From Ascidia mentula (taxonomy: Eukaryota; Chordata; Ascidiacea; Phlebobranchia; Ascidiidae): a stretch of 64,000 nucleotides of DNA. This document shows positions 3,891 through 53,100 of this stretch, piece after piece. The stretch is from the NCBI GenBank assembly GCA_947561715.1, contig OX387197.1, forward strand, positions 21,540,266-21,604,265. The letters are read 5' to 3'. Each line of letters starts with the position of its first letter. Position 1 is the first letter of the stretch. The translations under genes and the position numbers were made by a program. Under the pieces are notes generated by a model, which did no database searches, was not told where the DNA came from, and saw only the letters and a program-made list of their open reading frames with translations.

Positions 3891-4003
3891 AAATATTTCT
3901 TCAATGCGCCGTGTCAGTCTCTGATCTATAACTATAGTACTTGCCGGTCCATTGTTTTATTGTGTCATCACGTTTGGGCGGTCCTCGGGACGACCTAAGT
4001 TAA

Positions 4004-4906: not shown

Positions 4907-4942
4907 ATGTATTCACAGACTCTCTTCAAAAGTAAAATCACC

Positions 4943-6400: not shown

Positions 6401-6729
6401 TCCTGTTTGAAGCAGATAGATTTAAAAAGTTAACAATGATTGGTGTTTTGACCCAACTTTCTATGTGTCTGGAGATCTTTCACCAACGATTGACGTTAAC
6501 GCGTTTTTGTTTTGTTGGTTCGAGTCAAATGTTAGAGAGCACAAATACTGGTGGTATAATGTTTGGGGAAACTCAACCACGATACTAACAGTCTGATCCT
6601 GGTATAAAGTTACATTCCAGTATGCTATGCAGATTTGTGTTTAACAAACAAAACCTAATTGGGGCCTTAAAACAAACTGTTATTATTGGCACATAGCCTT
6701 TGTTGTCCGAGTTCCAAAACCCTCAGAAG
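6401..6729 (+). repeat. 3' flank of transporter unit A
   Basis: This 3' flank is conserved in all three units (A here, B 11911-12235, C 14827-15130), with landmarks 'tggtggtataatgtttgggg' and 'aaacaaactgttattattg'. It probably includes the 3' UTR. The duplicated unit is therefore upstream spacer, gene and 3' flank, about 2.9-3.1 kb once insertions are removed. Confidence 0.7.
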
Positions 6730-7245
6730 TAAAAATGTATCGACGTAAACGGCCAAATTTTGCTGGAATTGTTTTAAAATAGTCGTTTTAGCACTTGAAA
6801 TAAATGTTTAAAGGCGAAATCAGAAGTTTATTTTCATTGAAAACGTACAGTGGAGTGCTGTTGGCCAGTATAGTAGGACGCCCTAGAATACTTCCGTTAT
6901 GAAACCAAAAGCAATGAAGAAGTAAAGTAATTTGATGCTTATACTGCAGTGAAGACACGTTTATATGCAAGAGTAATTTGATTGGCTTTAGTGGTGAACA
7001 CAGTTGCATTAAAATTTAAAAAAATAAACGAAACGTCACAAAATTTTTCAGGGCAGGCAGAAAATCATTGAGATTCATATCATTTGTATATGAGGTTTTT
7101 CTTTAGTATATGAAGCAGAAATAATATATTCGGCAATAGCTCTTGATGATTGGTGTGCATTATTTGTAGGTCGCAAAAATGTGCTCAAAGAAAAGAAAGC
7201 AAGTAACAGTTTGGCATCGAGGGTGCAGATACTGTTTTTGCAAAC

Positions 7246-7549
7246 AATTTCACATGTGTACAAGCTACAGACAGATGGCCACTGTTTCGACCTAAAAGGT
7301 CTCATCAGTGCAGTTGGTGTGACTATAAGACGACTCTGCTGACCAAACGGCCAAGCAAAGACTTCCACTTTGTGGTGACTATACAATCACCGTCATCCGT
7401 TGGGCACCAAACTAGGTGCAACCTTACGGAGAAAACAAGGTGGAAACACTATGGCCAAGCAAAGCTCAACCAATAGTGCCGTCAGGCCCCGTGTCACAAT
7501 AATCATATGATAAGCAATGAGGAGCGAATAATATGAATTTCACATGTGT
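7246..7549. mobile_element. 276-bp short insertion with 14-bp target-site duplication
   Basis: The 14-mer 'aatttcacatgtgt' occurs at 7246-7259 and again at 7536-7549. In unit C (about 12772-12795) the same spacer has it once and runs directly from 'aataatttcacatgtgt' into 'ttgtcgat'. The 276 bp between the duplicates are therefore an insertion. It has no ORF. Its minus strand starts a hammerhead ribozyme motif close to one end (see 7265-7313). A related sequence lies at 44866-44916. This fits a short non-autonomous retroelement of the kind often linked to Penelope-like elements. A tRNA-derived SINE head is not visible. Confidence 0.75.
7265..7313 (-). ncRNA. Type I hammerhead ribozyme
   Basis: On the minus strand the conserved core is complete. 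Stem I 5' arm CTGCA (7313-7309) is followed by CTGATGA (7308-7302), stem II GACC/GGTC (7301-7298 and 7292-7289) with loop TTTTA, then GAA (7288-7286). Stem III ACAG/CTGT (7285-7282 and 7274-7271) has a 7-nt loop, then comes the cleavage triplet ending GTC (7272-7270), and the stem I 3' arm TGTAG (7269-7265) pairs with CTGCA using one G-U wobble. Every helix closes and every core base is canonical, which is hard to get by chance. Self-cleavage would fall after the C at 7270. Confidence 0.85.
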
Positions 7550-7810
7550 TTGTCGTTTTAAATGTTGGTATACACCCGATTTTTCTTACACTATTTATGA
7601 AACGCATGCTTTAAAATGGTGTCCCACGAAAGTGAAGTAAATTGCATTCCTATCCCTCAACTTGGTCAATGAAAGACTTCTTGAGAAGTCGTTTTGCAAA
7701 AAATACATTCTGGATCCATCAATATTCGTTGCGAACAAATAAGAGTTTGATTTCTAGGAATCGCCTGTGTAGTCTTTATGGCTGACAGAGACGCAGTAAC
7801 GGATCAATGC

Positions 7811-8292
7811 AGAAAATGATAAATATTCCTAAGTCGTCTGTCTGTTTCAAGTTTTTACGACATTTTTTTCGCCTGTCTGTGCAGGCATCATCGGTATCAC
7901 TAAAAAACAACACAACAACGGAGTTAACCAACAGTAATGCAAATGTAAAATTACCTTACAAACTGACAATCAGATTTCACGATTAGGTAAGGTGCGACTG
8001 AATTGTCGGCTTTGGCTTATTTGTGGGGACGCTCGATAAAACATAAAATCAAATAAAAAAGGGAGAAAACAACAAGCTGCAAGCGATAGCGGTAAAAAAT
8101 GTCGGCGGTGATCTGGCTCTACGTCATTGATAAGCTTGTCACAATGACAACACAGTTGGTGGACACTTCAACGGTAAGCGAAGGCAAAAACAAAACCGAC
8201 ACTTACATTGTATTAGGCAATATAAGGGGGTTGATGTTAATTTTTGCCTTGATTTTGTGAAAACATTTGTCTTTACATATATCCAATAAATT
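7811..8292. repeat. Left inverted terminal repeat of the Penelope-like element
   Basis: This is the near-complete reverse complement of 9637-10111, from 'agaaaatgataaa' inward to 'catatatccaataaat', with scattered single differences and one small indel near the outer end. Terminal repeats in inverted order are known for Penelope-type elements. On the minus strand, within it, GATGATGCCTG and CAGGCGAAA form a stem-II-like helix with a hammerhead-like surround. Confidence 0.9.
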
Positions 8293-8709
8293 CACTGGGG
8301 GCTGTTCGACGAAGATGACTTTGTATTTTGCCATGAGCAACGCAGCTCGGTCGGTATTTCCGTTATCTTTTCCCGTTTTCCAAACGGCTCGATGTCCGTT
8401 CCATCGAGTGGAAAACTTGTTTTTCGTTTTGCCAACGTATTGGTCACCACATAAAAGGCGGGTAGCTATATAAATGACGTAGTTTCGACATGTCAATGTC
8501 TGACGGAGTGGAATTGGCCCACTGGGTGTTAATAACTGGTTAGTACTTACAACCATTGATGTGTGGTTGCCGAAATTCCCACAGAGGGCGCAATGGCCGC
8601 AAGGCTGTGACAGTCCTGTTTTGTGCGGGTTTTGATCGTCACAATGAGCGATGCCTCTATACTTGGTGAGCATACAAGCGAGAGTGTGTGGGCGCTTGTA
8701 AACTACCAT
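8203..8709 (-). CDS. GIY-YIG endonuclease part of the Penelope-like element
   Basis: The frame reads YVIYIATRLLCGDQYVGKT followed by R and a histidine (RWNGHR). This is the GIY-YIG nuclease pattern with the spaced Arg and His of the catalytic domain. A Cys-rich stretch (CGHCALCGNFGNH) precedes it, as in the linker of Penelope-like proteins. It would nick target DNA for reverse transcription. Its 3' end runs into the left terminal repeat. The element is treated as a fossil. Confidence 0.8.
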   Translation of the reverse strand: MVVYKRPHTLACMLTKYRGIAHCDDQNPHKTGLSQPCGHCALCGNFGNHTSMVVSTNQLLTPSGPIPLRQTLTCRNYVIYIATRLLCGDQYVGKTKNKFSTRWNGHRAVWKTGKDNGNTDRAALLMAKYKVIFVEQPPVNLLDICKDKCFHKIKAKININPLILPNTM

Positions 8710-8734
8710 GGTATGTGGATTGAGGATCTTCTCT

Positions 8735-9599
8735 TTAGGACTCGGTCGGAGTAGGTTTACGAAACTTGTAGCCCATATGTCCAGTACGGATGTACAGCAG
8801 GTGATACAGCAGTACGTCTGGCATGTCTTGTTGTACGTGTGTTTTTATTAAACGTGAGTTCCAAATTATTTTTGCGGAACACGTTGTCAGCTCATTGCTG
8901 ACGTGGTTGGCTGTTTCTTCAACAAAACAAATAAAAATTATGTCATCAATGAAACGTTTGAAAACCTCGGTTTCTTCGATGAATTGGGCAACTTGAATGA
9001 CGACATAGTGAACGGCGACGTTTGCCAATGAGACCGAGTGGTTGTCACCGGTTACGATGCCAGTTTGTTGCGAGTAAAACTTTTGTTCGTTACGTAAGAA
9101 TACGCCTTTAAGACACACAAATATTAAATTGGTAAGATCTTGTGTAGTCTTGTGACTGTACTGCGTGTGTCGTTGTATAGCATCCTGCAGGGCAGAGTGG
9201 AGCAGCGTGCGTGGGATGTTACTGTACAGAGATTTTACATCTGCTGTCACAATGTACAAGTCGGAAGAAATAGTCTTCTCACCTATTTCGTTAGCCATGT
9301 GATTCTGCCAGTCAGTCAAAGTCCTTAAATAGTGAGTGCTGTCCCGGCAATATTCGGACACAATGGCTTGGCAGTATGACGCACTGATGGGTTGTAGTTT
9401 TTATGCTTTCTAAGAAAGCTGAGAACCGCGACATCGGAGTGTCAACTAGTGATTGCAACAGTCTCACTGGGATGTCCTGTATGTTCGTAATTTCCAGTTG
9501 TGCGGCGGCAATTTTGTGCGTCTTAAACAAGGGATATGCGTAGGCTGGGGTGTTGGAATTAAAGTATTTTGCAGCAGGACCGGGTACGTGATGATACAT
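8735..9599 (-). CDS. Reverse transcriptase part of the Penelope-like element
   Basis: RT landmarks in order are AYPLFKTHKI and IPVRLLQSLVDTPMSRF (fingers), DVKSLYSNIP (motif A), GIVTGDNHSVSLANVAV (motif B) and RFIDDIIFI (motif C, with the Asp pair). The FIDD form and the downstream GIY-YIG domain point to the Penelope family and away from non-LTR or LTR elements. The region is carried by more than one frame and looks broken. Confidence 0.85.
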
Positions 9600-9636
9600 A
9601 TTTCCTTTGTTCTTAATTCCAGCTGTATGAAACAGT

Positions 9637-10111
9637 ATTTATTGGATATATGTTAAGACAAATGGTTTCACAAAATCAAGGCAAAAATTAACATCAACCC
9701 CCTTATATTGCCTAATACAATGTAAGTCTCGCTTTTCTTTTTGCTTCCGCTTACCGTTGAAGTGTCCACCAACTGTGTTGTCATTGTGACAAGCTTATCA
9801 ATGACGTAGAGCCAGATCACCGCCGACATTTTTTTACCGCTATCGCTTGCAGCTTGTTGTTTTCTCCCTTTTTTATTTGATTTTATGTTTTATCGAGCGT
9901 CCCCACAAACAAGCCAAAGCCGACAATTCAGTCGCACCTTACCTAATCGTGAAATCTGATTGTCAGTTTGTAAGGTATTTTTACATTTGCATTACTGTTG
10001 GTTAACTCCGTTGTTGTGTTGTTTTTTAGCGATACCGATGATGCCTGCAAAATACAGGCGAAATGTATATGTCGTAAAAACTTGAAACAGACAGACGACT
10101 TTATCATTTTC
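9637..10111. repeat. Right inverted terminal repeat of the Penelope-like element
   Basis: Partner of the left repeat. It runs from 'atttattggatatatg' to 'gacgactttatcattttc', ending at the target duplication. The plus strand carries the same hammerhead-like core as the minus strand of the left repeat, as expected from the inverted arrangement. Confidence 0.9.
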
Positions 10112-10452
10112 TTCGTTGCGAACATTGTGAAAGAAAGAAACCTAAACGGGATGTAGTGTGGCATGCACAACATATCGATCAGACATGAATGCGCAAGAGG
10201 GAAATAAATTACTTTCACGTCAAAACTGCTGCAGTCGAGCAGTAGTGAATTCGTTTGTAACTTTTGTGTGATTCACATCCTGATTAAAGCTTGTGTAAAG
10301 GCTGGGTATAGTTTTATCCGCCGATAAGTTTTGACGAGGCTGAAAAGGCAAGTCAGAGTGAAATAAGTTTAGTGGTATTTCACTGTGGTAACGATGTTGA
10401 TCCGTAACATATATTTATGTATTCACAGACTCTCTTCAAAAGTAAAACCACC
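10112..10452 (+). repeat. Upstream spacer of transporter unit B (right part)
   Basis: This continues the unit B spacer after the Penelope-like insertion. It has the same 'tattcacag' 3' splice-like signal (ending about 10428) 24 bp before the preferred start codon as in units A and C. Confidence 0.75.
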
Positions 10453-11910
10453 ATGTGTGCAAATTCATCTGACAACGTGACCTGGACTTTGTACACGCGC
10501 CGTTGGGCGTTTTTGGTCGGCCTAGCTGTGCTCCAGTTCTTCGCCGGCATCTCCTTCACAAGCTACGGACAGATCAGCAATTTTTACGTGCTGTTTTTTC
10601 GGGCCACTCACGCACAAGTCGACTGGATCACCAACGCTAGGAACATCAGCGCCATATTGATCACTTTTCCTCTGGCGTGGATGGTTTTTAAGGGAGTGGT
10701 TCGCCTCAGGATAATTATTCTCATCGTGGCGTCGTGTTCCACTTTTGGATTGCTCCTAGTTACCGTGTCCTTGTCAAATCGCTCCTTTTTTCCTATCATT
10801 GTTTTGGGTCAATTGCTTTGCGGCCTGTCTGAAACCGTTGGTATTGCGGTGCCGGGTACATTTGCAGCTGTATGGTTCCCAGAAAGCCAAGTGGGCACGG
10901 CGATAGCCATCAACGTGATGGGTGTAGCAATCGGCGACGGTACAGGGTTTCTTTTGCCTGCGAGTCTCATCTACGTCAAGTCCAGGTTATATAATGCGAG
11001 CACCATTTTTCACAACAATACAAACTTTCTCGAAGAAGCTCAACAATCTTTGCAGATAATGTACGGCTCGTTTTTGACGGTTTCAGCTGCGGTTTCTGCG
11101 TTATTTTACTGGTTTGTCACTGACCGACCGCCTTCCCCTCCAACAGCCGCTCAACAAGCAAAAGATTCAGATAATTCACTGCATCCTTCGCGGGAGTTCT
11201 ACCAAGAGACAAGGCAACTATTTTTAAATCGATCCTACGTATTCGCTTGCGTTGCGCTGGGATTTGTATTTCAAATCGTGCTGCTGGAAAATCTTATGAT
11301 GTCAGAAATCATCGGTGAAAGCACCTTGTTTGGAATTAAACTTAACGCGGGGATCGTAAGTGGATTTGTGATGAGCCTTTACAGCGTCGGGGACACGATA
11401 GGAATCGGAATAGGAGGAAAAGTGGTGAACAAATACAAACGATACAAAGTGCTCGCGATTTTTGGGTCGTCGTTTATGTTTCTGGCGTCTCTTGCAATTG
11501 CGACCTCGGTGTACTACGAACAAATTCATGCCTTATTCTTCAGCAATGCTATGTTTGGTTTGGTCAATGGTGTTACTGAGGTTGTGATCTTTGAAATTGT
11601 CACGCAGCAGACGTACCCCGTGGACGAGACAATAGTTAACACCTGGTTAACCGGAATACAAATGCTCATCGGAATTTACCTTGGCATTTTCGGGCGATTA
11701 ATCTTCACTTCATTTGGAAGTATGGGCGTTTTAGAGTTCCAGAGTCTTTGTCTACTGTTGAGTATTTTGCTTTTGTGTTTCATTTCTCCGCGAAACCGTC
11801 GAATTGAGTATGGATTTGGTGAGGAGAAGGAATGTATGAATAACGACGATACGAGGCAACCACTTTTGGATAATCAGGAGCAAAGCTTCGATAACACAGA
11901 TTCGCGCTAA
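10453..11910 (+). CDS. FLVCR/SLC49-like major facilitator transporter, copy B
   Basis: Intronless, 485 aa from Met at 10453 (497 aa from 10417). The topology is the same as in copies A and C. Differences from A cluster in short patches: GVAIGDG, IYVKSRLYNASTIF, KLNAG for KLDKE, GIQMLIGIYLG for GVQTLIGLCLG, and the last dozen residues. KLNAG is shared with copy C, so A probably changed there. No frame damage is seen, so the gene looks functional despite the nearby insertions. The substrate is unknown; the family moves small solutes such as choline. Confidence 0.9.
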   Translation: MCANSSDNVTWTLYTRRWAFLVGLAVLQFFAGISFTSYGQISNFYVLFFRATHAQVDWITNARNISAILITFPLAWMVFKGVVRLRIIILIVASCSTFGLLLVTVSLSNRSFFPIIVLGQLLCGLSETVGIAVPGTFAAVWFPESQVGTAIAINVMGVAIGDGTGFLLPASLIYVKSRLYNASTIFHNNTNFLEEAQQSLQIMYGSFLTVSAAVSALFYWFVTDRPPSPPTAAQQAKDSDNSLHPSREFYQETRQLFLNRSYVFACVALGFVFQIVLLENLMMSEIIGESTLFGIKLNAGIVSGFVMSLYSVGDTIGIGIGGKVVNKYKRYKVLAIFGSSFMFLASLAIATSVYYEQIHALFFSNAMFGLVNGVTEVVIFEIVTQQTYPVDETIVNTWLTGIQMLIGIYLGIFGRLIFTSFGSMGVLEFQSLCLLLSILLLCFISPRNRRIEYGFGEEKECMNNDDTRQPLLDNQEQSFDNTDSR

Positions 11911-12235
11911 GCCTGTTTGAAGCGGATAGATTAAGAAAGTTAACAATGATTGGTGTTTTGACCCAACTTTCTATGTGTCTGGAGATCTATCACCAACAAC
12001 TGACGTCAACGCGTTTTTGTTTTGTTGGTTCGAGACACATGTTAGTGAGCACAAATACTGGTGGTATAATGTTTGGGGAAACTCAACCACGATACTAACT
12101 GTCTGATCCTGGTATAATGTTACATTCCAGTATGCTATGCAGATTTGTTTTTAACAAACAAAACCTAATTTGGGCCTTAAAACAAACTGTTATTATTGGC
12201 ACATAGCCTTTGTTGTCCAGGTCCCTCAGAAGTTA

Positions 12236-13344
12236 AAATATATCGACTTAAAAGGCCAAATTTTGCTGGGATTGTTTTGAAATAGTCGTTTTCGCACTTA
12301 AAATAAATGTTGAAAGGCGAAATCAAAAGTTTATTTTCATTCAAAACGTACAGTGGAGTGCTTTTGGCCAGTATAGTAGAACGCCATAGGATACTTTCGT
12401 TATGAAACCAAAATCAATGAAGAAGGAAAGTAATTTGATGCTTATACTACAATGAAGACACGTTTTAATGCAACAGTAATTTCAATGGCTTTAGTGGCAA
12501 ACGCAGTTGCAATTAAAGAAATAAACGATTCGTCACATGTGTTTCTTTTGTTTTTGTCATCATAGAACATTTTTCAGTGTAGACAGAAAATCATTGAGAT
12601 TCATATCATTTGTATATGAGGTTTTTCTTTAGTCTATGAAGCAGAAATAATATATTCGGAAATAACTCGTGATGATTGGTGTGCATTATTTGTAGGTCGC
12701 AAAATTGTGTTTTAAGAAAAGAAAGCGTATAACAGCTTGGCCTCGAGGGTGCGGATACTTTTTTTCCAAATAATTTCACATGTGTTTGTCGATTTGAATG
12801 TTGGTATACACCTGATTTTTTCTTTCACTGTTTATAAAATGTATGCTTTTACATGATGGTCTGTCCTAGTGTGTTGTATACGTGAAGCTCTCAAGAAAAT
12901 TGCATTCCTATCCCTCAACGGCCAGCGAAAGACTTGTTGAGAAGTCGTTTTGCAAAAAATGCATTCAAGATCCATCAATATTCGTTGCGAACATTGCGAA
13001 AGAAAGAAAGAAACCTAACCGGGATGTAGTGTGGCATGTACAACAAATCGATCAGAGAGGAATGCGCATAGCGGGAAATAAATCACTTCCACGTCTAAAC
13101 TGCTGCACAGCACAAACCTGCTGGAGTCACGCAGTATTGCAATTCGATTGTAACTTTTCTGTGCGTAACATTCTGTATAAAGCTTGTGTAAAGGCTGGGT
13201 ATAGTTTTATCCGCCGATAAGTTTTGACGGGGCTAAAAAGGCAAGTCAGGGTGAAATAAGTTTAGTGGTATTTCACTGTGGTAACGATGAGAATCCGTAA
13301 CATATTTTATGTATTCACAGACTCTCTTCAAAAGTAAAATCACC
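12236..13344 (+). repeat. Upstream spacer of transporter unit C
   Basis: Uninterrupted version of the spacer. It serves as the empty-site reference for the insertions in unit B: 'cgttgcgaacattgcg' at about 12982 and a single 'aatttcacatgtgt' at about 12772. The open frame at 12882-13220 is not preserved in units A or B, so I do not call it a gene. Confidence 0.75.
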
Positions 13345-14826
13345 ATGTGTGCAAATTCATCTGACAACGTGACCTGGACTTTGTACACGCGCCGTTGGGC
13401 GTTTTTGGCCGGTCTAGCTGTGCTCCAATTCTTTGGCGGCATCTCCTTCACAAGCTACGGACAGATCAGCGACTTTTACGTGCTGTTTTTTCGGGCTTCT
13501 CACGCACAGGTCGACTGGATCACCAACGCAAGGAACATCAGCGCCATATTAATCACCTTTCCTCTGGCGTGGATGGTTTTTAAGGGAGTGGTTCGCCTCA
13601 GGATAATTATTCTCATCGTGGCGTCGTGTTCCACTTTTGGATTGCTCCTAGTTACCGTGTCTTTGTCAAATCGCTCCTTTTTTTCTGTCATTGTTTTGGG
13701 TCAATTGCTTTGCGGCCTGTCTGAAACCGTTGGTATTGCGGTGCCGGGTACATTTGCAGCTGTATGGTTCCCAGAAAGCCAAGTGGGCACGGCGATAGCC
13801 ATCAACGTGATGGGTGTAGGAATCGGCGACGGTACAGGGTACATTTTGCCAGCCATTCTCATCTACGGCAAGTCCAGGTTATATAATGCGAGCACCATTT
13901 TGCACAATAGTACAAACTTTCTCGAAGAAGCTCAACAATCTTTGCAGATAATGTACGGCTCGTTTTTGGCGGTTTCAGCTGCGGTTTCTGCCTTATTTTA
14001 CTGGTTTGTCACTGACCGACCGCCTTCCCCTCCAACAGCCGCTCAACAAGCAAAAGACTCGGTTAATTCACTGCATCCTCCGCGGGAGTTCTACCAAGAG
14101 ACAAGGCAATTGTTTTTAAATCGATCCTACGTATTCGCTTGCGTTGAGCTGGGATTTGTATTTCAAATCGTGCTGCTGGAAAATCTTATGATGTCAGAAA
14201 TCATCGGTGAAAGCACCTTGTTTGGCATTAAACTTAACGCGGGGATCGTAAGTGGATTTGTGATGAGCCTTTACAGCGTCGGGGGAACGATTGGATTCGG
14301 GATCGGTGGAAAAGTGGTGAACAAATACAAACGATACAAAGTGCTCTCGATTTTTGGGTCGTCGTTTATGTTTCTGGCGTCTCTTGCAATTTTGGTCTCG
14401 GTGTACTACGAACAAATTCATGCCTTATTCTTCAGCAATGCTATGTTTGGTTTGGTCAACGGCGTTACCGTGGTTGTGATCTTTGAAATTGTCACGCAGC
14501 AGACGTACCCCATGGACGAGACAATGGTTAACACCTGGTTAACCGGAATACAAATGCTTATCGGACTTTGTCTTGGCATTTTCGGGCGATTGATCTTTAC
14601 CGCATTTGGAAGTATGGGCGTTTTAGGGTTTCAGAGTCTTTGTCTACTGTTTGGCATTTCGCTTTTGTGTTTCATTTCTCCTCGAAACCGTCGACTTGAG
14701 TATGGATGTGGTGACGAGGAGGAAAGTATGACCAATGGCGATGCGAGACAACCACTTATGGATGATCAGGAGCAAAGCTTCGATACGACAGATTCGTGCT
14801 TGGCCTGTTTGAAGCAGATAGATTAA
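13345..14826 (+). CDS. FLVCR/SLC49-like major facilitator transporter, copy C
   Basis: Intronless, 493 aa from Met at 13345 (505 aa from 13309). It is the most divergent of the three copies: AGLAVLQFFGGISF, SDFYVLFFRASH, GYILPAILIYGKSR, FACVELGF (a charged Glu where A and B have Ala in a membrane segment), GGTIGFGIGG and SLAILVSV. The stop codon that ends A and B is replaced by sense sequence here, adding CLACLKQID to the tail. Upstream signals are as in the other copies. All three lie in the same orientation about 2.9-3.1 kb apart after removing insertions. Confidence 0.9.
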   Translation: MCANSSDNVTWTLYTRRWAFLAGLAVLQFFGGISFTSYGQISDFYVLFFRASHAQVDWITNARNISAILITFPLAWMVFKGVVRLRIIILIVASCSTFGLLLVTVSLSNRSFFSVIVLGQLLCGLSETVGIAVPGTFAAVWFPESQVGTAIAINVMGVGIGDGTGYILPAILIYGKSRLYNASTILHNSTNFLEEAQQSLQIMYGSFLAVSAAVSALFYWFVTDRPPSPPTAAQQAKDSVNSLHPPREFYQETRQLFLNRSYVFACVELGFVFQIVLLENLMMSEIIGESTLFGIKLNAGIVSGFVMSLYSVGGTIGFGIGGKVVNKYKRYKVLSIFGSSFMFLASLAILVSVYYEQIHALFFSNAMFGLVNGVTVVVIFEIVTQQTYPMDETMVNTWLTGIQMLIGLCLGIFGRLIFTAFGSMGVLGFQSLCLLFGISLLCFISPRNRRLEYGCGDEEESMTNGDARQPLMDDQEQSFDTTDSCLACLKQID

Positions 14827-33174: not shown

Positions 33175-36100
33175 TTATGACGTCATAATGTAGTATTGAC
33201 AAATGTAACCCGTGCGATCCGAGCACAGCTTCTCTTCCCAGCGCCATTGCGCCGTCATGCGGTCAAACGAAAGCTGAGCGCAGTTCTTGCCCGCTGCCGA
33301 CCCGCCCTCGGCTGGGTTGTCCGGGCGCCACATTTGCCAGACGTTTCGTTGGACCCTGGTTCCGTCGCTGTACTCGAATTGGCCTGAGCGGACGGCAGAG
33401 GGCGCTATTGAGCTGGATGTAGAGGTGGGAAAGTTAGCGTAGGTGGAAGGAGCCGCCGACTGTCGCTGGATTCCGATCCAGTAGGTGCTCACACGGGACG
33501 CCAACTTGCTAGATATGAAATTCTGCAAACAAAAGAGATAATTTAAGCCGCTGTTAAGAAGTAGACTACACGTACAAGTATGCTGGAAACTTAACACACT
33601 ATCGGAACAATCGCAAAAGGAGTTTTCTTCTGCTCCGTATATTCATTATTTTTTGTTTCCCAAAATCAGCTTTGGCATTCCGCCCACCGCAAAATCATGA
33701 ATAGCTTAACTCAGTGTTTCTTAACCTTTTTGTTCATGCGGACCAGGTTTATTTTTCAGAAGCTGCGTGGGCGAATATTTCATTAACTTAGCTACGCTTT
33801 ATTCGTGTCAAATATACCAAGGTATACAAATGTGTACTTCCACATAGTATCGTAGCCCACTGGAACACAGCTGCATGACCATTATTGGTTGAAAAACAAT
33901 GGCTTAATCCTTTTACAATGTTTACCTGTGTAAGTCTATCCTTTATTATAGCCAAGCTAGCTTGATCACCCAAGTCGTCTCGGCACCACTTCTTGGCCGC
34001 CCTCTGGTCCAACTTCGCATCACCAACCATGTAGCAGTGGACGCCGAACCGGTAGTGGCCCTCCTTGCACAATTCAGGGTATTTGGCCGGGAGCGAATCT
34101 GCTGCACAAGGGTTACAATAATTATCATTATAATGAAATGCAAAAGAAATAGGAGCGTTCAAAGAGGATTTTTTTTGCCTGACCACAACGGGATTTAAAC
34201 ACAGGATTTCCTGGGCACGAATCGGATCTGGTTTTCTTTTTGGTATATTGGTCGGGCGCTTGACTAATGCTGGCAATCACCCGCCCAACGTTTAATAAGA
34301 ATTATTGGGAAAATTGATCCGGTTGGGTTATGCCGCGCTATCCAGACTAAGGACGTGGTAAAACGTACCTTGGCGATCACCGCTTATGTGTCTGGTCAGT
34401 TTTGCGTCCAAATCTGCGAAAAAAAAACACTTTTATACACACGTGCTTTACCTAAAGAGAAACGAAATGATCCATTTCTATCAAGATTACTCAAAAGAAA
34501 ACCACATTGTCATTGATAAACCCTTTCCTAACAAAACTTTATGCCAGTTTTAGGCCTACTTCGTGTAAGCGACTGCAGCTGGGGAATCTTGCGTAGGGTA
34601 GCGACCTCCGACGGCGACAAAGCAACGCCGGCTGATCTTCCGGAGGAAATGTCGACTCGGTCTCGATTGCTGATCAGTTTTCTACAAAAATAAGGTACGT
34701 GGCCATATAAGAAATGGGCCGAGTTGCTTTATGGAAGTCAAACAATAAACGAAGTAAAGAAATGAAAAAAAATGCATATGAAGCCGGAAAATAAACTAAA
34801 AGAAATGTAAAAGAAAAAAAAAATCGTATATTTCACACTTTAGGCAGAGAAATGCATGTTCGCATACGCTTATGTTACGAAAAATTGCAAATAAACATTT
34901 AATGAAATGAACAAGGTTAAGCGAAACGAGGACTAATCTGGCAAACCGGTTTATCAGGCAACAAGTAAAGAGTTTTTCCATTCCACCCATACTCTGCGTC
35001 ACCGTGTATGCATACACGTTTTGACGGTCACCGATATGCTGTTTATCGTCGCATGCGTGCATTGAGCGCAAATGGGCTGAAAATCAATTGCGAACTCGCT
35101 ATTGGAGGTGAACCTGGGGAGTAATTTACGTCCACTGCGCCCTTCTGCGGTCGGCCATCGATCACAACAGCCCCGCGTAATCAACTTACACCATGCCACC
35201 ATCGATCTCGATTTGATGTTGATGTGGCCCAGCGTCCTCCCGGGAACCACAAAAATTTGGCGACGTTGAAAAAAATAATTTTTCTTGTATGATGCTACGT
35301 TCGCACACACTATTTCTTTCGAAAAGGTTTTCATTGCCATGGCGAAAAACTTATACATTTTATAATAAAATTAAGGCGGCAGAAATTTTTCTTTTGATAG
35401 CGCGGAGGTGTGCTGTGCATTGTAGACGTATGACAGCGACCAATGCGGTTTTGTTGCAAAATGCATTCCGACCGTATTTCGCTATAAAGAGACAGTGTGC
35501 TTTGCGAAAAAGATTTTCAAAAACTTTCCATCAGCCTCTAGTAATTAAGCCGAGGCCTACGGAACAAGAAGAACGATGTTCCGATGGGACATAGCTAATT
35601 GTGATAGGACATTGGAAAGTAATCGATGGCACGTGACCCCTTGGATTAATTATGCATGTTATTGTTTAAAACCTTAACCCAACCACATCGATCGAACATG
35701 AATTTCGAGCTCAAAGAATTCTTTTTCCGAGCGTTTGGGAGCACGACTTTCGCCCATGTTACAGATAGTTTAAAAGCCGCTGCATGTTATATTTCTTTCG
35801 CGTTTAGGTAAAATAGCAATACTGCAATCGGTCACGTTCTGATCCAGAGTAAAACATCAAAATACGTGCAAAAATCAGTGAAAACGGTCATCTACCTGTA
35901 CGAGCTCTCCAAGTTACCGACTCGAGACTGAAGACCGACAACTGTGGCTGTCAACTTTTTAACATTTTCACTCAGAGTTTGAATGTCACCATTCGGCTTG
36001 GCTAATTGCTTCTCCCCTTGATCTGCCATTGCCACATCCCTTCTACTGCCATCTCGCGACGGAGCCGCCTTCTCTTGACCAGTGGCCGCGAATTCGCACA

Positions 36101-42081: not shown

Positions 42082-45000
42082 ATGTCGTCCCCAGTTGTTC
42101 TGCAGTTACCAACGGCAACTTTTTCTAAAAAACGAAAATATAAGGTACCATCTGTCACTACAACAGTTCAAAGCAGCGAACATGTAGATTCTGGCCTAAT
42201 GTTGCCAGATCAGCCTGTCACAGTATTTCCAGTGGTGGTTGACTTCGAACGTTTGCTGAAGGGCACAAACAAGCCTCAGGAGCAGGTTGGTTAGTAGCAT
42301 AACTAAAAAATTATTGCAAGTATCCTTTTCCATATGTTTTGCCTTATTTGAAATAACTTTTCAAAGCACAATCAGTACAGTTCAACAAATGTCGCAATGT
42401 TGTTTTAATATGCTTTTCCCATGAACCATATTACAGTAAATCATCCAGAAAGTGGAATGGATTAAAAAGTTTACTTTTAACAAAAAAAATATTTTTCATG
42501 ATGAGGTATATATAACACTAGTCATCTGTAAGATTTGTCAATTCACATTTTTACAGATTGTCGACGGTGTTGAAAACAAGGATTTGATTCATGGTGTTGC
42601 CAACTTGTATGGCATTTCACTACCTGAGCTGACTGATGACATTATATACCCAACCTTGTGTGAAAAATGGTCAAAGACCTTGTTGCTCATTAGAGCTGAA
42701 AATGAAGTACTTCAAGATTTGAGTCAACAAAACCGAAAAGAAAAAGATTTGGACAAATTTGATGCCGATATACATGAAAAAGGTTTTTTGGGAACACCTA
42801 CTGCCACATTGATTGTGTGGCGTAATTATATGTACATTTAAATCTAAGCTCAAACATTTCTATGTTTGTTTATGTAAGAATTAAAGTCCAATCGGTGTGC
42901 CCCTTGCATGTGTGCAATGTAATGTAATTATTACGTGGCATGTTGACCAACTTCCAACTGAATTGCAGAAAAAATGGCAAGTCTCTCTGAGCAAGCAGTG
43001 AACATATTCAGTGATGAGGAATCTGCTGATGAGGAGGAAGAGGATGAGCAGGAAGAGAACTGGCTTGCTCAAGTACCCACTTTCCTCCGACAGGTCAAGG
43101 ACAGATACAAAGATAGACAAGAGTAAGAAACTAAAATGTTTGGTGAAAGGCTTGATGAAGTCACGTGTGGCTGTAGTGACAATTTTCCTTAATATTTAGT
43201 TTATAGATTTGTCAAAAGGGTGTTTAGAGCCATGAAAAAACTGTATAAATCGAGGCTATTTCTTCATATTATCATGTATCAATGTAAAAGAAATCTTAAA
43301 AGCTTCATTAGATTTATGATCATTTGATTGAGTTTCAAAAAGTACACTTGTGTAAATTCACACACAGATTCATGCACACACAGCATGGCAACCTCGAAGT
43401 GGGAGATGAAAACAAGCCAACTTTACCCAAACAACTTATCGGTAACTGAATAAAACAAAAAGTTCTTTTAAATTCTAAACAACAAACCTAAAACAAAAGC
43501 AGATATTAAAGATTCCATACGTTTAAATATTTCTAGTCTGAACAAATATTTTAACAATTTAAATGTTAATCAATTTCTTCAACGTGGCAGTCTCTGGTAT
43601 ATACCTATACTACTTGCTAGTGCACTGTTTTGATAAGAGACTGACTATTAAACAACTTTATTCGCACGAGCTTTTGAGAGCTTGATCTTGCTTCAATAGA
43701 TGCTGCAATAGAGTTAATAAACTGTCTTTTGCAGGAATTGAAAATCGCCTTATTGCTAGTGCCACATTTGAGCGCTCCTATGACAAACCCGGCCAGAGAG
43801 TCTTGCAATTAACATTGATTGCTGTACGGAAAAAGTACAGGCATCTGGGTTTGGGTCAGTTCATGATGAAGCAGATTCACGACTCCACTATTACCGGAGG
43901 AAGTGATGTGATTGTGGTCAACGCAGACCAGAATGCAGTGGATTTCTTTGAAAAAGAAGGTTGGTTATATATATATGATAACGAAGTCACCAATTACAGG
44001 TCCAAAATTTCCCAAGCCACTTGGTTTTGAAAAAAATATGTATATGGCATAAATTTCTGAACTAGTGGAAATAAAAACAATGTTGGCAAAAATTAGTCAA
44101 AAATGTTTAGTAATATTTATTGCAACATGAAGAATACTTTTTTCATGAAAACGAGTTGCATAAGATAATAAAATAAAATTAAAAAAAAGCCCGCTGGTCA
44201 GCAACATGCAAACGTTTCCAAACTGTTTTATATTTAGTGCACTTCCATTCTTCTTTAAGATCACTTGGTCCAAGTGTTTTTAAATAACAACACCCTTCTT
44301 TTCATTATTTTCCTGCAATATTTCATAAAATAACATATTATTCATGAAATAATGCAATAACTTTGACATTTGCTGTCAAGGATTCACAGACGATGTGCTT
44401 CTTAACAGTCCCTATGCACAAATCGGTGATATCTGGTTTAACAGTCGCAGGATGTGCTTTCTGCCCTCCTATGTGTCCGTGAGTGCTTATCCAAACAAAA
44501 TTGATGCTATTCCAATGGACGATCCAACTCTGGCGGAACTCAACCTCAGGGAGATGGAACTTGAAACAGCTTTATGGAGAGAAAAGAGCCTGCAGGTTTG
44601 TGTATCTGCCAGTTTCTTTTAGCTGTTTTTACACTTGGTCTGACATCCTAATTTAGGCATCATAGTGTGACCCTCTGATATTTAAATACTTTTTTTCAGT
44701 ATAAACCTGACTACAACTGCATGATTTTATTATGCCTAAGCACAATTCACTTCATTCAGAGAAAATTCCTTTACTAGTTTTTTGTGTTATTTTATTTAAA
44801 TTTCAATCTGTTTCTTGTGATGTCCTAGGCAAATAATTGTTTTTAAAAAACAAAAGCATATAAGAGCTACAGACAGGTGTACACACATTTCGACCTGTAA
44901 GGAACACCTGTCTGCAGATCTCATTGACTATTATGGCTCTTTTGTGCATATAATAAGAAGCATATACTTCTGCATTTGGAACAAATCTTTAATTAATGAA

Positions 45001-46881
45001 GCCATATATTGCAGCCAATCTGGATAATGACCACATTTATATATGTCATGTATTTCCCTTGTAAATATGCACCTCGACAAAGGTACTATTTTTTTCAGTG
45101 TTTTTTTAAATAAATTTTAATTTTTTTTCTTGTGAGGTCTTTTTTGTTTGCCTTTACATATTTTTTTTTCTTATGAAGGCATACCAGGCGCAAGCTCTGA
45201 TTGTAAGACGCATGAGGCAAGAGGTTCTTACACTTCGGGCAAAGGTGGCAATACAGGATGAAATCATAGTGAAGTTGCAGAAAGAGTTGGAAATCGCCAA
45301 AGAATCAAAGCTTGCTTCTCAAGAAAGTCACCTGAGAAAGCGTTTAAGCAAATTGCGTGAAGCTATGCAGGACCTGGAAGAACAAGTTACTATTGGAAAC
45401 GAAGGTAAAAAGACCATTTTCTTACTTTCTGTATGATAATAATCACTTTGGACTGTGTGTTTATCTTCCGTCGGCAATTATTGGATGTCATTAAAAAACA
45501 CATGTTGAAAAACTGTTTTTTTGTTGAGATAACTCCTTTTCTTAATAACATTCAATATTTTCATTCCGAAATCGACCTTTTCTAACGCCACTTGTTGTGC
45601 GTGACACAGGTGGAAAAATTATTATTCAAAACATTATTATACATGCATGTAAACATAATGTAGCAAGATTAAACACACAAGTCAAGGTGTTGTGACAAGA
45701 AAAGGAGTTTGCAGAATTACAATATAAAATAACCTGGTGTCAAACGCATTTGTTGTTAAGAATACATGACACAAGGTTATTTTATATTGTAATTCTGCAA
45801 ACTCCTTTTCTTGTCACAACACCTTGACTTGTGTGTTTAATCTTGCTACATTATGTTTACATGCATGTATAATAATGTTTTGAATATTTATTAAGATGTT
45901 GTATTTTAATCTGCACATTGCACAAATCTGCGCATGGCGATTTGTTGCCAGGAAACGAGTAGTAGCGCCTGTGTTTTTGCCTTGGGTTATCGCCTTCATG
46001 TTGAACTAAATGGTTGTCAAACTAAGCTGGTTTTCTTTGCAGGCGAAATGCAAACAGACTCAGCATGTTCGTCTTCGGCCCAAGACATTTCATCATACAA
46101 AACAGAATCCATTCAAAGTAACATAAACTTCACTGAAATGCCCGGTTGCTCGTACGGGGAGGTCGCTGTTAAGCATCAAGAAGAAGCTCAACAGTCCGAC
46201 AACGAAACAAGTTCGGAATCTTTAGTTGGCGATATCGCACAAAGTACAAATGCACTTTCATTTAACAGTCAACGAAAGCAGCAGGATGACCTCAAAGAGC
46301 TTCAACTTATGGAAATAAATCACTGTTTCGTGGCCAGCATGGACAGTGGCGAATACAATTTCAGTGGCACCGCCTACCAAGTCACGAACATAGTTAACAC
46401 GCTATGGGCTATGCCTACACCAAGCGTTGTAAACCAATATGAAAGCACTAGAAAGGAATGCCGTCACCCAGACATAGTCGCAAACCTGTATTTCTGCGGC
46501 ACCCAGACCTCCACAACCAACGACAGAATGTTGGAGATTTTGACTAAGGGCTTTAGTACTGAGGATTTCGCGCAGAGCGACTACGGCATAGGTCTGTACT
46601 TCACCCGACACGCCCGCGCGGCTGCTAGATTCTCCCCCACTGGGAAGATCCTTGTGGCCAAAGTGTGCCTCGGGAGCACGCAAACAGTCACTGCGAAAGA
46701 CCAATGCAGAAGCGCGCCACCCGACGGCTATGACTCCATACTTACTCAGGGCAGATTGTCGTCGTTGTCTCAGGGTCACTTGTACGCGCGGTCTTCCAAT
46801 ACCGGTTACAGCGAATATATCGTTTTCAACGTACACCAGGCCTTGCCGCTTGCATTTATTGAGTACAACCTTATATTTTGA
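42082..46881 (+). CDS. GNAT acetyltransferase - coiled coil - PARP catalytic domain fusion
   Basis: Eight exons, all phases matching: 42082-42285, 42557-42782, 42969-43122, 43368-43441, 43735-43959, 44381-44595, 45179-45404 and 46043-46881, giving 720 aa. Residues about 160-180 are very acidic (SDEESADEEEEDEQEE). Residues about 215-345 form a GNAT domain: LTLIAVRKKYRHLGLGQFMM carries the acetyl-CoA pyrophosphate loop R-x-x-G-x-G (255-260), then ADQNAVDFFEKEGF, the usual beta5-alpha4 pattern. Residues about 345-440 are a long coiled coil (VRRMRQEVLTLRAKVAIQDE). Residues about 510-720 are a PARP-type domain: NLYFCGTQ, LTKGFSTEDF, YGIGLYFTRHA, KILVAKVCLG, SEYIVFNVHQALP. The ART triad reads Cys593-Tyr627-Glu699, where PARPs have His-Tyr-Glu. 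I know of no described protein with this architecture. Acetylation and ADP-ribosylation by one chain is an inference, and the His-to-Cys change may abolish the ADP-ribosylation. Confidence 0.85.
44866..44916 (-). repeat. Degenerate relative of the hammerhead-bearing insertion
   Basis: On the minus strand it shares CTGCA, GGTCGAAA and CTGTCTGTAGC, in the same order and spacing, with the ribozyme at 7265-7313. The CTGATGA segment is replaced by unrelated bases that instead extend a hairpin (GACAGGTGT with ACACCTGTC). It looks like an old, inactive copy of the same repeat family, lying in an intron of the GNAT-PARP gene. Confidence 0.55.
45624..45885. repeat. Near-perfect 119-bp inverted repeat with 24-nt loop
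   Basis: 45624-45742 and 45767-45885 are reverse complements with about one mismatch. Examples are 'acatgcatgtaaacataatg' in the left arm and its complement in the right. It lies in the intron between the coiled-coil and PARP exons. In RNA it would fold into a hairpin of about 119 bp. It may be a recent fold-back transposon, but I cannot see target duplications. Confidence 0.9.
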
Positions 46882-47080: not shown

Positions 47081-47108
47081 GTTGTTAAGAAAATTAGGTT
47101 AATTCAAA
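47081..47108 (+). promoter_or_regulatory. 3' splice site before the DNAAF1 start codon
   Basis: 'atttctcttttatag' ends at 47080, leaving a 28-nt leader. The gap back to the GNAT-PARP stop codon is 227 bp, with no AATAAA in it. This is compatible with trans-splicing of the second gene of an operon. Confidence 0.4.
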
Positions 47109-50100
47109 ATGCCTCTGATTGTTGAGCTTCCAGAGGATGCTTCCCAAGATGAGATCGAGACTCCAATTTCTAAAACAAGCGTCCCCACCGAAATGGTAAC
47201 AATACAAATACACACCAACGTTTTAAGCAGTAACTTGTATTCTGTCAATTTGTTGATCCTTTATTGAACATATATTGCAAATGTCCTAATTATTTAGTTC
47301 CACTTTTTGAATTTTGATTCATTCCAATGTTACATTATTTAAACCTGTCCAAGAGGGGGCAATTACTGCAACATGTAAAACATGATTTTATTTTGCTAAA
47401 CACTGACACATATGGGGACTTCGCACTACGACACAACAGTTTTTATACGAAAATATTTACCACAAAACGTACCTCAAGAGTACACATATTTTTTCAGGAA
47501 GCATTAAGATTTACCCCCTATTGCACGGCAGATCAATTACCAAAGCCATGAGTAAGATTGAGTGTTGTGTCTGTTTCAGGGTGATGCCAACATCCCCCCA
47601 CCGACTATACAAGAATCATCTCCAGCTCAGCCACAAGATGGCGGTGAAGCGCGTCCACCCGAAACAGACAAAGAAGAAGTCGCTCCAACAGACGAAACTT
47701 CAACACAACACGAAGTAACGCAAGAAGATTTGTCTGAGTGGATTGTCAACACTGATGACGAGTCTATGTCAGATGTAACTTCTACTGCGGGTTCGGTTTC
47801 AACCGTTGACGTAAGTCGATTTTTCCACTTGAAAAAATAAAATTCGCGGCTTTCATATGCAATGTGTCCACATAAATGCACCTGCTTGTTTTATAAAGTC
47901 TATTGGTTTATGTTATTTACCCAATAAAATGCACTGAAACATGTGCAACTAAGCCAATAATGATAAGTGAGATGCAGACAAAGCAGTTGTATGGTCATAT
48001 TGTGGTCCGTCTCCTGTGATTTATATCTAGTTTGGAACCCATCGATTCAGCTACGGGTGCACTTTGTTTATACTACTGCTGTTGGTAATAGTTAATAACA
48101 ATTTGTTTACCATAGGAAAAGCAAGATGCGGAGGATACTCGTGAAGGTAATCAATAGGTGTCATACGTTTCTTATTGTTGCAGTTCCATTAAAACTGTTG
48201 TTTAAGCCACTGAAACAGACTTTAGTTGGTAATAATTTTGTTCTTTCAGCCTCGAGAAGCGGCATTGACATGGAAAAGCTTGAATCTCTATACCCTGGTT
48301 GGAGACTTTCATCCGATGCAAAGAGCATACAGAAGAGAAGATTCGGTAATTAGTTTGTTGCTTATGATAGATTTCAGTACTTGGTTGCCAAACAAGATTG
48401 CAAGCATTTGGAAAGGTTTTCTGGTGTTCGGGGGTAAACAGGCCTTATGGTAATGCTGTATGATAAAGCACGACATATTTCTTGGTGCTTATTCGTGTAG
48501 CATTATGCTCAAATTATGACCAATAATTTGTTCTTTGTGAAATTCCTCACGAACTGGTACCGGTGGTTGGCAACTCCTGTTTTCGGCCACTGGTTTCAAA
48601 TCACTCAAATCCGTGCCAATTTTAGCGTAAATCTTACTTGCAGAGGATCTCAAGAAACGCCCCCCTACGGGTCGGACCATCGAAGATTTCGTTCAAGACA
48701 TGAAGCAACGTGCGCACTCTTACGGCGTTGAACCCAAACAGAGTGCGCCACCAAGTGATGCCAAACCGAAAAGTGTTTCGTTCGCCCGGGACCCGAGACC
48801 CACATTTCACAATTCTACATCGCAAGCGAAGCAAAACAAACCAACAACGCAGGGTATAGGAATTTGGCATTGAAATTGTAACTGAATGGTTTTAGGCTGA
48901 TAAGTAAGAAATATGTTGCTGTGATTAGTGTTAGAACGTTTGGGATTTTTTGGTCACTAGTTGATATTTTGCTTGATTTTGAGTTTCAAGCAACAGCGTT
49001 AAAACGAAAATGGTTAATAAAGAACCTACCCTTTACGTTTTTGTTCGTAAACACCATGTGTCTGTCCCGATGTTGCTACAACTTCCTGTTGATACAAACT
49101 ATAGAGCTTGGTTTTGCAGAAGCTTCACAAATATCTACTTACCTAGAAGTTGGCAGCGACAAAAAAGATAAAGAGAAGAAACAAGAAACAAACCCTGAGG
49201 AAATCAGGTAAGAAAAATAATTTACCTGTTTGTGTCTTCTGGAAGTATTGCATTAAACCTATAAGGTATTTTGCAAGCTAAAAGTGATTTTTAAACTTTA
49301 ATTTTTCCTGAACCAAATGCTGTTTTCTACATGTTGCATCAAAACTTTGTACTTCACAACTGTTCGACTACAGAGGGCCCTGTAGCGCGCTCTGGTTTTC
49401 CTAAAATACCAACTTTAAAAAATATGTATGTTCCATTTTGCACGTGCTGGATTTTGACAACTCTTGTGTTATTATTATTTTCAGTGCCGTGGAGCAGAAT
49501 GTGGAATCGGCGGAGGAGAGAAGAAAACGTGAGAAAGAAGAAGAGGAAATGTCTCGTTATCCAAGGTCGGTGTTCAATGTATCGTTTTAAACATGGCCAG
49601 TTTTTGTAGGGAAGTTTATAAACTTAGTATACTTGGGTCATAATATATCTTTTTGAGTGTAAACTTTTATCAAAGGTGGACATGTCTGCGTGCAGTAGCC
49701 AGTGACGGAAAAATTGCAAAATTATTTCCTAGTTAAATTATCTTTTCTACCTAAGTCAACAGCTAGTAACGTTAATGTAGATCAGTTCTATACTGCAAGC
49801 TCCATTGATAACTTTTAAGCACGCCAAAAAAACGTTTGTAAAACTGTACATATATATACATATATAAAAACCCGTTCTTTACCAGAATGACCAAGGAAGC
49901 TTTGAAGAAGATTTGTAAAGAACACAAGCTGTATTCCACCCCTTACCTGAATGACAATCTCTACCTTCACTATAAAGGTGAGACTATTTTGCGAAATACT
50001 ACAACTGTTGTGATTCTAAAATCTCATAAGTCCGCTTTACTGTTCTCGTACCTTAACCTGGTTAAAATAGTGTCGTTCGACCAGCTTATCTGCAATGCCA

Positions 50101-53100
50101 GTGAACTTTTTAGATAGCTGAGATTTTCATAAAGGGCACTGTGTGAGCGTGTATTGCTTCTGAATTGTTGTGTTGTTTGTTCTAGACATTTACCATTTTG
50201 TTGAATTAGGTTGGTGGAGGATTGAAAATCTGGACGAATACACAGGTCTAAAGTGCATCTGGCTTGAAGTCAACGGATTGAAAAAAATCGAAAACCTAGA
50301 AAAACTTACGCAAATGAGGTAGTCTGCGCATTTGTAATTGTCGTGCTGCATTTACTCGTTTATAAAAAAGTGCGGCCATGGCCTGTTAAACCTCTCAAGT
50401 CAAAACAGTATCACACTGTTTGCGGCTCATTGTCCATTATTGGATCCATTGCTTCAATATGACCAGCGTGTTTGTTGAGTTATTCATGATCCCAATTTCG
50501 ACAGATGTTTGTATCTGCAACAAAACCTGATCGACAAAATTGAGAATTTGGAAAAGTTGGAGGATCTTCGCGTTCTAAACCTTTCCAACAATCAACTTCT
50601 CAAAGTGGAAAACTTATGTATGTGATTAGCCCTGCTCTTCATGCTGTTTGTTTACAAGCCAAACGCTAACGTTACATAATTTCCGCTATTGCTGTGAATA
50701 TTAGGGTGGAAAACAAAAGTCGCCTTATTGCTGAATAGTTCCATATTTAAACATTGAGCTGCATGCTATACGCTATGCAAGTTAAACATTTATGCTTTCA
50801 AAGATTGGTTTCCTTGGTAAGACTCATCCACTTATCACATGGAATGTTTGCAAAATTTACGAAACGAAAACAGCAATTCAAATGATTCTTCAAAAATTTT
50901 TCCGTTAATTTCTGACACCAAAAATAAAAAATCTATAGCCTGTCTGTCGCGACTGGAAAGCCTACAGTTGGCTCACAACCACATTTCGACCGTGAAGGGT
51001 CTCGAACATCTGAAAGAATGCAAGGAAGTCAGCGTACTCGATCTCTCCCACAACCATATTGAAGACCCGGCAGTCATTGACGTGTTTGAGGCCATGCCAG
51101 GATTGGTAAGAGGGTTTTATAAATTACAAATTATTAGAACTCTGCCATAAGCTGGTAAGTATGTTTTGTCGCAGTGACATTTCAACTGTAATAAAAAATG
51201 TGTGCAGAAATTTCAACACATTTTTCTGAGGTGGCTTCTTCAAAACACAATAAAATGTCATAATTTGCAAGCAAATGTCCCCTTGGGTCATAAAAATGCA
51301 CTGCATTCGTTTTTTGAGTGCGTCGTGTCTACATTCTTAAGGCAATAATAGAAGGATACTGATATGAAGTCCCATTGAAACTTAGTGCTTCCTTTTAACT
51401 AACCCATCTCGTATCAAATATTCAGAGGGTGCTTAACCTAATGGGGAATCCCGTGATCAAAAAAATCCGTTTCTACCGAAAAAATCTCATCGTTCGACTG
51501 AAGGACCTCACCTATCTGGACGACAGGTGAAAATCTTAAAAAAACTACTCGAGAATTTACAATAAAAATAAAAACTGTACTTGGTTGCAGGCCTGTGTTC
51601 CCTCGCGACCGCGCATGCGCAGAAGCGTGGCACCGCGGCGGTCACGAGGCTGAGAAAGCAGAGAGACAACATTGGGTGAACAAAGAGAGGCAAAAGATAC
51701 AGGTAAATAAAAACAAACTTTGTGTCGTGTTTTCCTAAACCTGGTCGCGCACTTATAAAACTTTTAAAGTACGTCTTTGCAAGCAAGGTTTGTGCTCACC
51801 AATCACCAATATCGAGTCTTCAAAGAAGAATGTTATTTGTGTTGAAGTTTTACAGCATGGATTTTTGTGTGCTGATGATGTTATGTTTAGAAACTTAGGT
51901 TGATATAGGTTTAAGTGGAATATGATGAACTAAACGGTGTGACAATTGTTGTTTCAGGACAGTATCGACTATTTGCACAACGTGAGGAAAGAGGCGGAAG
52001 CCAGAAGAGAAGAATCTGGAGTCACCCGTAAGTTTACACGCATTTATTTAAACTTTGTGTTGTTGGAGTGTTTGCGAATTAATCCTCATGGCTGTTTGGT
52101 TTTATCTCCCGTACCATAATTGTTTTAAGCTAAACACGCCAGTTTTTAGCTAATTGCAAAACTGTTTTTCGGTAATCGAACCCATGTTGTCACTTTTGCG
52201 TTTCAGTCGAATCAACGGTGACACCAGTGGCAATGTTCGACCAAAGGATACCAGGCGAAGATGAAAATACACCGCCACTAGAGGGCACTGACGAGGAAAG
52301 TGGAAAACTTGTCGAAAAACCGGAACAGAAAGTCAGAATGGAAACGACGGAAAAAGTTGAAATTCAGGAAAATGAAAAACCTTCGAACGAAGTGTTGAAT
52401 GCCGAAAGCAAGTTCGTCACAGAACTTCCAGGTCTACAGTTCGTGTTGATGACGTTTGAAATATTTGTTACATTATTCATAGTTTTTTAACACATTTCCA
52501 GGAATTTTGCTCGAATATTTCAAAAATTTTTCGCAATGTATTTAATTTTCTTTGCGCGAAAATGTGTACGTGGTGACGCCTGACTCTGTATGCACAAACG
52601 AGGTCTTGTTACATCACAACTGCTTGAAACAATTTAATTTATACTCTGTCGCATTTGCGGCGTAATTTCTCTTAAGGGCCTAATCATAGGTTTCAAAAAA
52701 TTCGGGTTTGATCTAACTCTAACAAAAACTCGTTTTAAGTGGATTTGTTGTCACTTTAAATGAAAGAATTGCTGTGTTGTTCCTGTTTTGTCCAAAAACA
52801 TCCGAGATTTCGCTCCGACTTGTCAGGAAAAATGGGCATCATCCACAGCTAGGCTGCAATGCCCGGGCTGCGAAACCTGTAAACCTAATTGTCTAAATCC
52901 GAATATTTGATTGTACGCAGACGATGAATCCATAGAAACTATAGAACTCAAGGCAGAAGAAGGCGCGAAGTTTGACCTTGACGACTTGCCTGACCTTGAA
53001 GACGTGGAAATCGACGAACTGTCCGAAGTGCCGATACATTTGCTGGTGAATCCAGTTTCGCTAAAACTTAAAAAATAAAATTCTCATTAAACCAATTTCT

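Follow-up and report, generated by a model that had tools for sequence, protein, structure and literature searches.

A window of 64,000 nucleotides from the ascidian Ascidia mentula (assembly GCA_947561715.1, contig OX387197.1, forward strand, 21,540,266 to 21,604,265) was analysed for a locus at 42082-46881 that carries a GNAT acetyltransferase domain and a PARP catalytic domain. All positions are those of the window unless another contig is named. The locus was read, with a rough probability of 0.5, as one gene for a fused GNAT-helix-PARP protein in which the PARP domain is probably impaired. A spliced-leader operon of two unfused genes was considered a serious competitor with somewhat less than an even chance. 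These weightings are judgements and not computed probabilities. On the DNA alone the choice between one protein and two is close to even, because the donor evidence and the evidence from the ATG and the phase nearly cancel.

From its N-terminus, which includes an acidic run, the fused product would extend through a GNAT domain, a charged helix that is possibly a coiled coil and a linker to a PARP domain at the C-terminus. The helix would assemble the protein into a multimer and the GNAT domain would acetylate lysines or amines of a partner. The PARP domain, without the His that orients NAD, would act mainly as a docking or sensing module and would be at best a weak ADP-ribosyltransferase. If the protein is fused, acetyl-CoA and NAD chemistry would meet in one animal polypeptide, a PARP-family architecture not mentioned, by keyword, in the available portions of two PARP family surveys. 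Acetyltransferases were not found under the keywords used there; Ciona and tunicates were not mentioned either and were perhaps not covered. Under the operon reading, the presence of another GNAT-PARP neighbourhood in this genome would remain a hint that the two modifications are regulated together. In either case, genomes with operons readily give apparent fusions.

Gene model and encoded domains

The eight exons of the model, all on the plus strand, splice to 2,163 nt, which is 720 codons and a stop. There is no internal stop and all introns are GT..AG, which bears out the eight in-phase exons proposed in the earlier note. The splice joins are predictions from genomic DNA. Exon 1 (42082-42285, amino acids 1-68) has its ATG 7 nt past a TTCAG acceptor, a possible spliced-leader site, and ends at the donor GTTGGT. 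Exon 2 (42557-42782, amino acids 69-143; donor GTTTTT) encodes no known domain above cut-off. Exon 3 (42969-43122) encodes an acidic run at amino acids 164-173, and its in-frame ATG at 42974, 5 nt past the acceptor, is a possible alternative start. The KKRK at amino acids 16-19 in exon 1 resembles a nuclear-import signal, and any nuclear location would rest on this motif and the acidic run. Exon 4 (43368-43441) encodes amino acids 195-219. Exon 5 (43735-43959) holds the GNAT core, with RHLGLG at amino acids 255-260 and EKEGF at 292-296, the latter finished by exon 6 (44381-44595). Exon 6 also carries the end of the GNAT domain and the start of the charged helical segment, which continues in exon 7 (45179-45404; donor AAG/GTAAAA). 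Exon 8 (46043-46881, 839 nt) encodes the linker and the PARP domain and has an in-frame ATG at 46048, 5 nt past its acceptor. The earlier note placed the two domains on neighbouring exons joined by a continuous coiled-coil exon. In the corrected layout the GNAT domain is on exons 5 and 6, the helix on exons 6 and 7 and the PARP domain on exon 8.

Intron 7 (45405-46042) contains a near-perfect palindrome at 45617-45892 with arms of 126 nt that are 98% complementary. Outside the window, genome matches covered only about 36 bases in the inner part of the arm (at least 40 places), and for this reason the palindrome resembles a small transposon whose flanks were duplicated in inverted orientation.

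Both domains named in the earlier note scored above curated Pfam cut-offs, and chance domain matches were ruled out on these grounds. The GNAT part matched PF13673 (32.4 bits, cut-off 23.6, amino acids 244-298) and PF00583 (25.9 bits, cut-off 20.7), while PF13508 was just under its cut-off (26.8 against 27). GNAT matches in NCBIfam were all sub-threshold, and no bromodomain was listed by Pfam at E up to 1. The GNAT stretch alone matched the solved GNAT 1q2y with E 5e-5, and the GNAT part matched Tetrahymena GCN5 with E 0.025. The acetyl-CoA loop of GNAT enzymes follows the rule Q/R-x-x-G-x-G/A. RHLGLG fits this pyrophosphate loop and the loop is intact. The protein shares motif A (R-x-x-G-x-G) and EKEGF, the usual kind of GNAT ending, with GCN5/KAT2-type and other GNATs such as 1q2y. 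It differs from GCN5 in having a Gln opposite one GCN5 Glu in the pairwise alignment, a Glu which we take to be the catalytic one. Many GNATs do not use a GCN5-type catalytic Glu.

The PARP part matched PF00644 with 37.4 bits against a cut-off of 26.7 (amino acids 559-710, profile positions 25-191 of 199). The PARP exon alone matched no solved PARP below E 0.7, so the domain is a divergent PARP. Three motifs were located: YFCGT (amino acids 591-595) at the site of the triad His, GLYFT (625-629) with the Tyr and SEYIVF (698-703) with the Glu. The triad Tyr and Glu are kept and align with those of other PARPs. The H-Y-E (or H-Y-x) triad is incomplete, as the His is missing in every alignment of the first site. 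Going by the L-[FWY]-x-G-[ST] motif, with four residues inserted, the site holds a Cys; the MAFFT alignment puts a Phe there and the ungapped alignment a Thr. Two further alignments that show the Tyr and Glu do not extend to this site. Our reading of the triad is C-Y-E. Of the landmarks pointed out in the earlier note, the GNAT loop is present, as are the PARP motifs with the Tyr and the Glu, but the first triad residue had been passed over. With the triad His absent, the note's proposal of a protein that combines acetyl-CoA-dependent with NAD-dependent modification is doubtful.

His and Tyr stabilise the conformation of bound NAD, according to the available text of a review (PMC10789625). In the accessible parts of two papers on plants, one land-plant PARP clade has Cys for His with the Glu kept (PMC2964712), and Arabidopsis PARP3, with the triad C-V-E, is without activity, as is PARP1 once mutated to C-V-E (PMC6701155). 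Land-plant PARP3, as far as these excerpts describe it, shares with the present protein a Cys at the position of the triad His (C-G-S in the plant protein, C-G-T in this one) and the retained Glu. It differs in its BRCT and WGR domains, in the replacement of the Tyr as well and in having no GNAT domain in the described architecture. By this analogy PARP activity is probably impaired here, with the qualification that two residues are changed in the plant protein and one in the present protein.

One fused gene or an operon

The case for fusion lies in the junction of exons 7 and 8. The exon 7 donor scored 7 of 9, the highest within the exon 7 frame. One other donor between 45150 and 46900 reached this score, at 45775 inside the palindrome. 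Between 45405 and 46060 no YAG apart from the exon 8 acceptor has 9 or more pyrimidines out of 14, and donor and acceptor join in phase. When the four donors scoring at least 6 were combined with the three acceptors with at least 8 of 14 pyrimidines, 4 of the 12 pairs were in phase and open, so that agreement is expected by chance one time in three. These four pairs include the one made by the strongest donor of the exon 7 frame and the strongest acceptor. A donor as good within 66 nt of the end of the open reading frame (ORF) was found in 20 of the 114 window ORFs of at least 80 amino acids. Multiplied by one third for the phase, this gives about 6% by chance.

A second GNAT-PARP pair was found in the same genome on contig C67 (C67:5193000-5200500, at 3958-6130 of that stretch; locus L037). 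The GNAT there is a single-exon frame (PF13302, 64.7 bits) with its own stop ending at 4623. The downstream gene has an acceptor at about 4815 (by eye) and matches PARP16 structures (4f0d, 1.3e-25). A hydrophobic stretch near the C-terminus of this PARP16 was noted by eye. As at the window locus, the GNAT lies upstream of the PARP on the same strand and less than 1 kb away; the L037 pair differs in its two separate open frames, its other GNAT family and its other PARP class. This pair is probably an operon and not a fusion.

The competing operon would consist of a GNAT-helix gene and a single-exon PARP gene. The exon 7 frame, if unspliced, runs to a stop codon at 45434-45436, where the first gene would end. 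Intron 7 would then be 3' untranslated region plus outron, and the PARP mRNA would be trans-spliced at 46043 and translated from the ATG at 46048, so that two proteins are co-expressed and unfused. This arrangement would make the good in-phase donor at the end of exon 7 a coincidence of the 6% kind. A number of results weigh against fusion. A Ciona-type spliced leader of 16 bases was present in 1,091 forward and 1,066 reverse exact copies (2,157), compared to 0 for the reversed control, which supports this being an ascidian genome with spliced-leader trans-splicing. Ciona operons comprise about 20% of genes, have no intergenic DNA, contain many single-exon genes and are frequently predicted wrongly as fusions, according to the available portion of PMC2760879. 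The ATG 5 nt past the exon 8 acceptor suits an independent gene and would be uncommon for an inner exon (an estimated 5% or so), although exon 3 shares this feature with exon 8, beginning with an ATG equally near its acceptor. Acceptor and ATG fit an operon start, and cis-splicing from 45404 fits equally. The L037 pair reads as two genes. Phase agreement alone, stressed as perfect in the earlier note, does hold; as a one-in-three event it is weak evidence and worth a factor of three. A PARP domain in a single exon is not special in this genome: the PARP profile match is broken into two parts in L018, L022 and other paralogues, but L013 and the PARP1-type genes L001-L003 each have it within a single open frame. 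The helix spanning exons 6 and 7 is charged and a coiled coil there is plausible, but a crude heptad test did not reach significance (40 of 300 shuffles did as well) and all coiled-coil-type Pfam matches in the segment were below cut-off. The single-sequence AlphaFold model of the PARP part had a mean predicted local distance difference test score of 33.7, was uninformative and was left unused. Finally, GTT-type donors make up 4 of the 7 in the eight-exon model, whereas none of 5 donors in the downstream gene and none of 3 in PARP16 is of this type (comparison donors picked by eye). The earlier claim that these are not two adjacent genes is not established, given the spliced leaders, the Ciona operons, the L037 pair and an exon 8 that could be a single-exon gene. 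The missing poly(A) hexamer before 46043 is no argument against an operon because neither AATAAA nor ATTAAA occurs between the GNAT and PARP16 genes of the L037 pair; hexamers were dropped as an operon test for this reason.

Two further readings concern parts of the model. One locus could give several products, with a short GNAT-only form that arises by read-through of intron 5 or ends after exon 7 and with the fused form minor or absent. Read-through (43960-44075) would add 23 residues up to a stop ending at 44030, with an AATAAA at 44070, 40 nt on, and the read-through frame retains a GNAT match of 33.7 bits. Set against this, intron 5 is AT-rich (GC 0.285), so hexamers are expected there by chance, and it is exon 6 that provides the EKEGF ending. 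This reading was judged improbable. It is also conceivable, at long odds, that exons 1 and 2 are mis-modelled and that the gene begins at exon 3 (ATG 42974) or elsewhere. The GTT donors of both exons, the lack of a known domain in them and the ATG just past the exon 3 acceptor would suit such a start, while the chain of exons 1 and 2 is open in frame and the exon 1 ATG sits behind a plausible acceptor. Exons 1 and 2 are the least certain part of the model because GTT donors are so frequent in it and absent from the downstream gene and PARP16.

GNAT and PARP genes elsewhere and origin of the pairing

No retrocopy or second version of the gene was found in the 195.8-Mb genome when it was searched with the GNAT exons and the PARP exon and the best candidates were scored. 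The next GNAT match had E 0.66. At least 77 PARP matches, counted exon by exon, were present in the genome, many of them clustered on contigs C1, C70 and C73, which suggests a large PARP expansion. The GNAT searches listed 53 places (17 and 36), of which 38 were kept after 15 overlaps were dropped by hand, two still being doubled. GNAT-PARP pairs within 5 kb occurred at two loci, both same-strand, compared to 0.05 expected by chance. The window locus was chosen for having such a pair, leaving L037 as the only independent one. On C1 a weak GNAT match (24.3 bits, E 0.005) was 6.6 kb from a PARP match. A bolder proposal would be that an active GCN5-like GNAT is fused to a His-less PARP fold which binds NAD or ADP-ribose, that acetylation is gated in this way by the NAD state and that, with a different GNAT co-transcribed with PARP16 at L037, GNAT-PARP coupling has arisen at least twice. 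This was thought unlikely.

Exon 8 may be a cassette that was added to a GNAT-helix gene already in existence. GC content at third codon positions is 0.64 in the PARP half of exon 8 and 0.439 in the first half, which is close to the 0.435 of exons 1-7. A difference as large between the two halves was reached in 4 of 5000 permutations. This contrast fits an older gene that gained a cassette, and codon-use selection could give the same. That the PARP domain occupies one exon was weighed as evidence for late acquisition of the cassette but carries little weight, as the same holds for L013 and the PARP1-type genes.

No relative of the GNAT exon or of the PARP exon was confirmed in IMG/VR. Phage records gave no match to the PARP part and nine weak matches to the GNAT part (E 0.04-0.8). 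A PARP1-type query found nothing in IMG/VR and one locus in genome contigs (L034), and an alignment query found two remote viral-contig loci. L034 lies on a contig filed under a Verrucomicrobiaceae metagenome-assembled genome and has a PARP1-type protein in interrupted frames, which looks like eukaryotic contamination. A viral or mobile origin of the locus was not favoured, there being no relative in the collections searched.

The earlier note knew of no described protein with this pairing. For animals, no published GNAT-PARP fusion was found in a literature search covering few subscription papers, and 'GNAT domain' with 'PARP domain' returned 0 papers; known orthologues may nevertheless exist. 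Outside animals the pairing is known. In polyvalent proteins one GNAT family typically neighbours an ADP-ribosyltransferase (ART) domain in the same polypeptide, as described in the available part of PMC5512222. These proteins of phages and mobile elements share with the fused protein an acetyltransferase beside a domain, ART-HYD2, from a clade described in that text as PARP-related. They differ in being encoded by phages and plasmids, in carrying many other domains and in having an H-Y-D triad. They are the nearest precedent for the pairing.

Other features of the window and genome

The next gene in the window, at 47081-51150, starts about 200 bases past the PARP stop and behind an acceptor. 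Pfam identified only leucine-rich repeats, in one frame, and the gene resembles DNAAF1, a dynein assembly factor. Since no AATAAA or ATTAAA lies between the PARP stop and this gene, it may belong to one operon with the GNAT-PARP locus.

Three very similar tandem single-exon frames of the major facilitator superfamily (MFS) transporter kind were located at 4892-14823. One of them was scanned and matched MFS_1 with 70 bits. Frames on the minus strand at 8206-9400 resemble a Penelope-like retroelement, with a reverse transcriptase recognised by eye and a GIY-YIG match of 18.8 bits, under the cut-off of 22.6. A C-type lectin gene is present on the minus strand at 33178-34276, where the frame 33178-33642 matched Lectin_C with 31.9 bits. 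An Rfam search of one spliced-leader locus (L028) gave no match. On contig C1, spliced leaders recur every 719-720 bases in tandem arrays that extend from 15239666 to at least 15297871.

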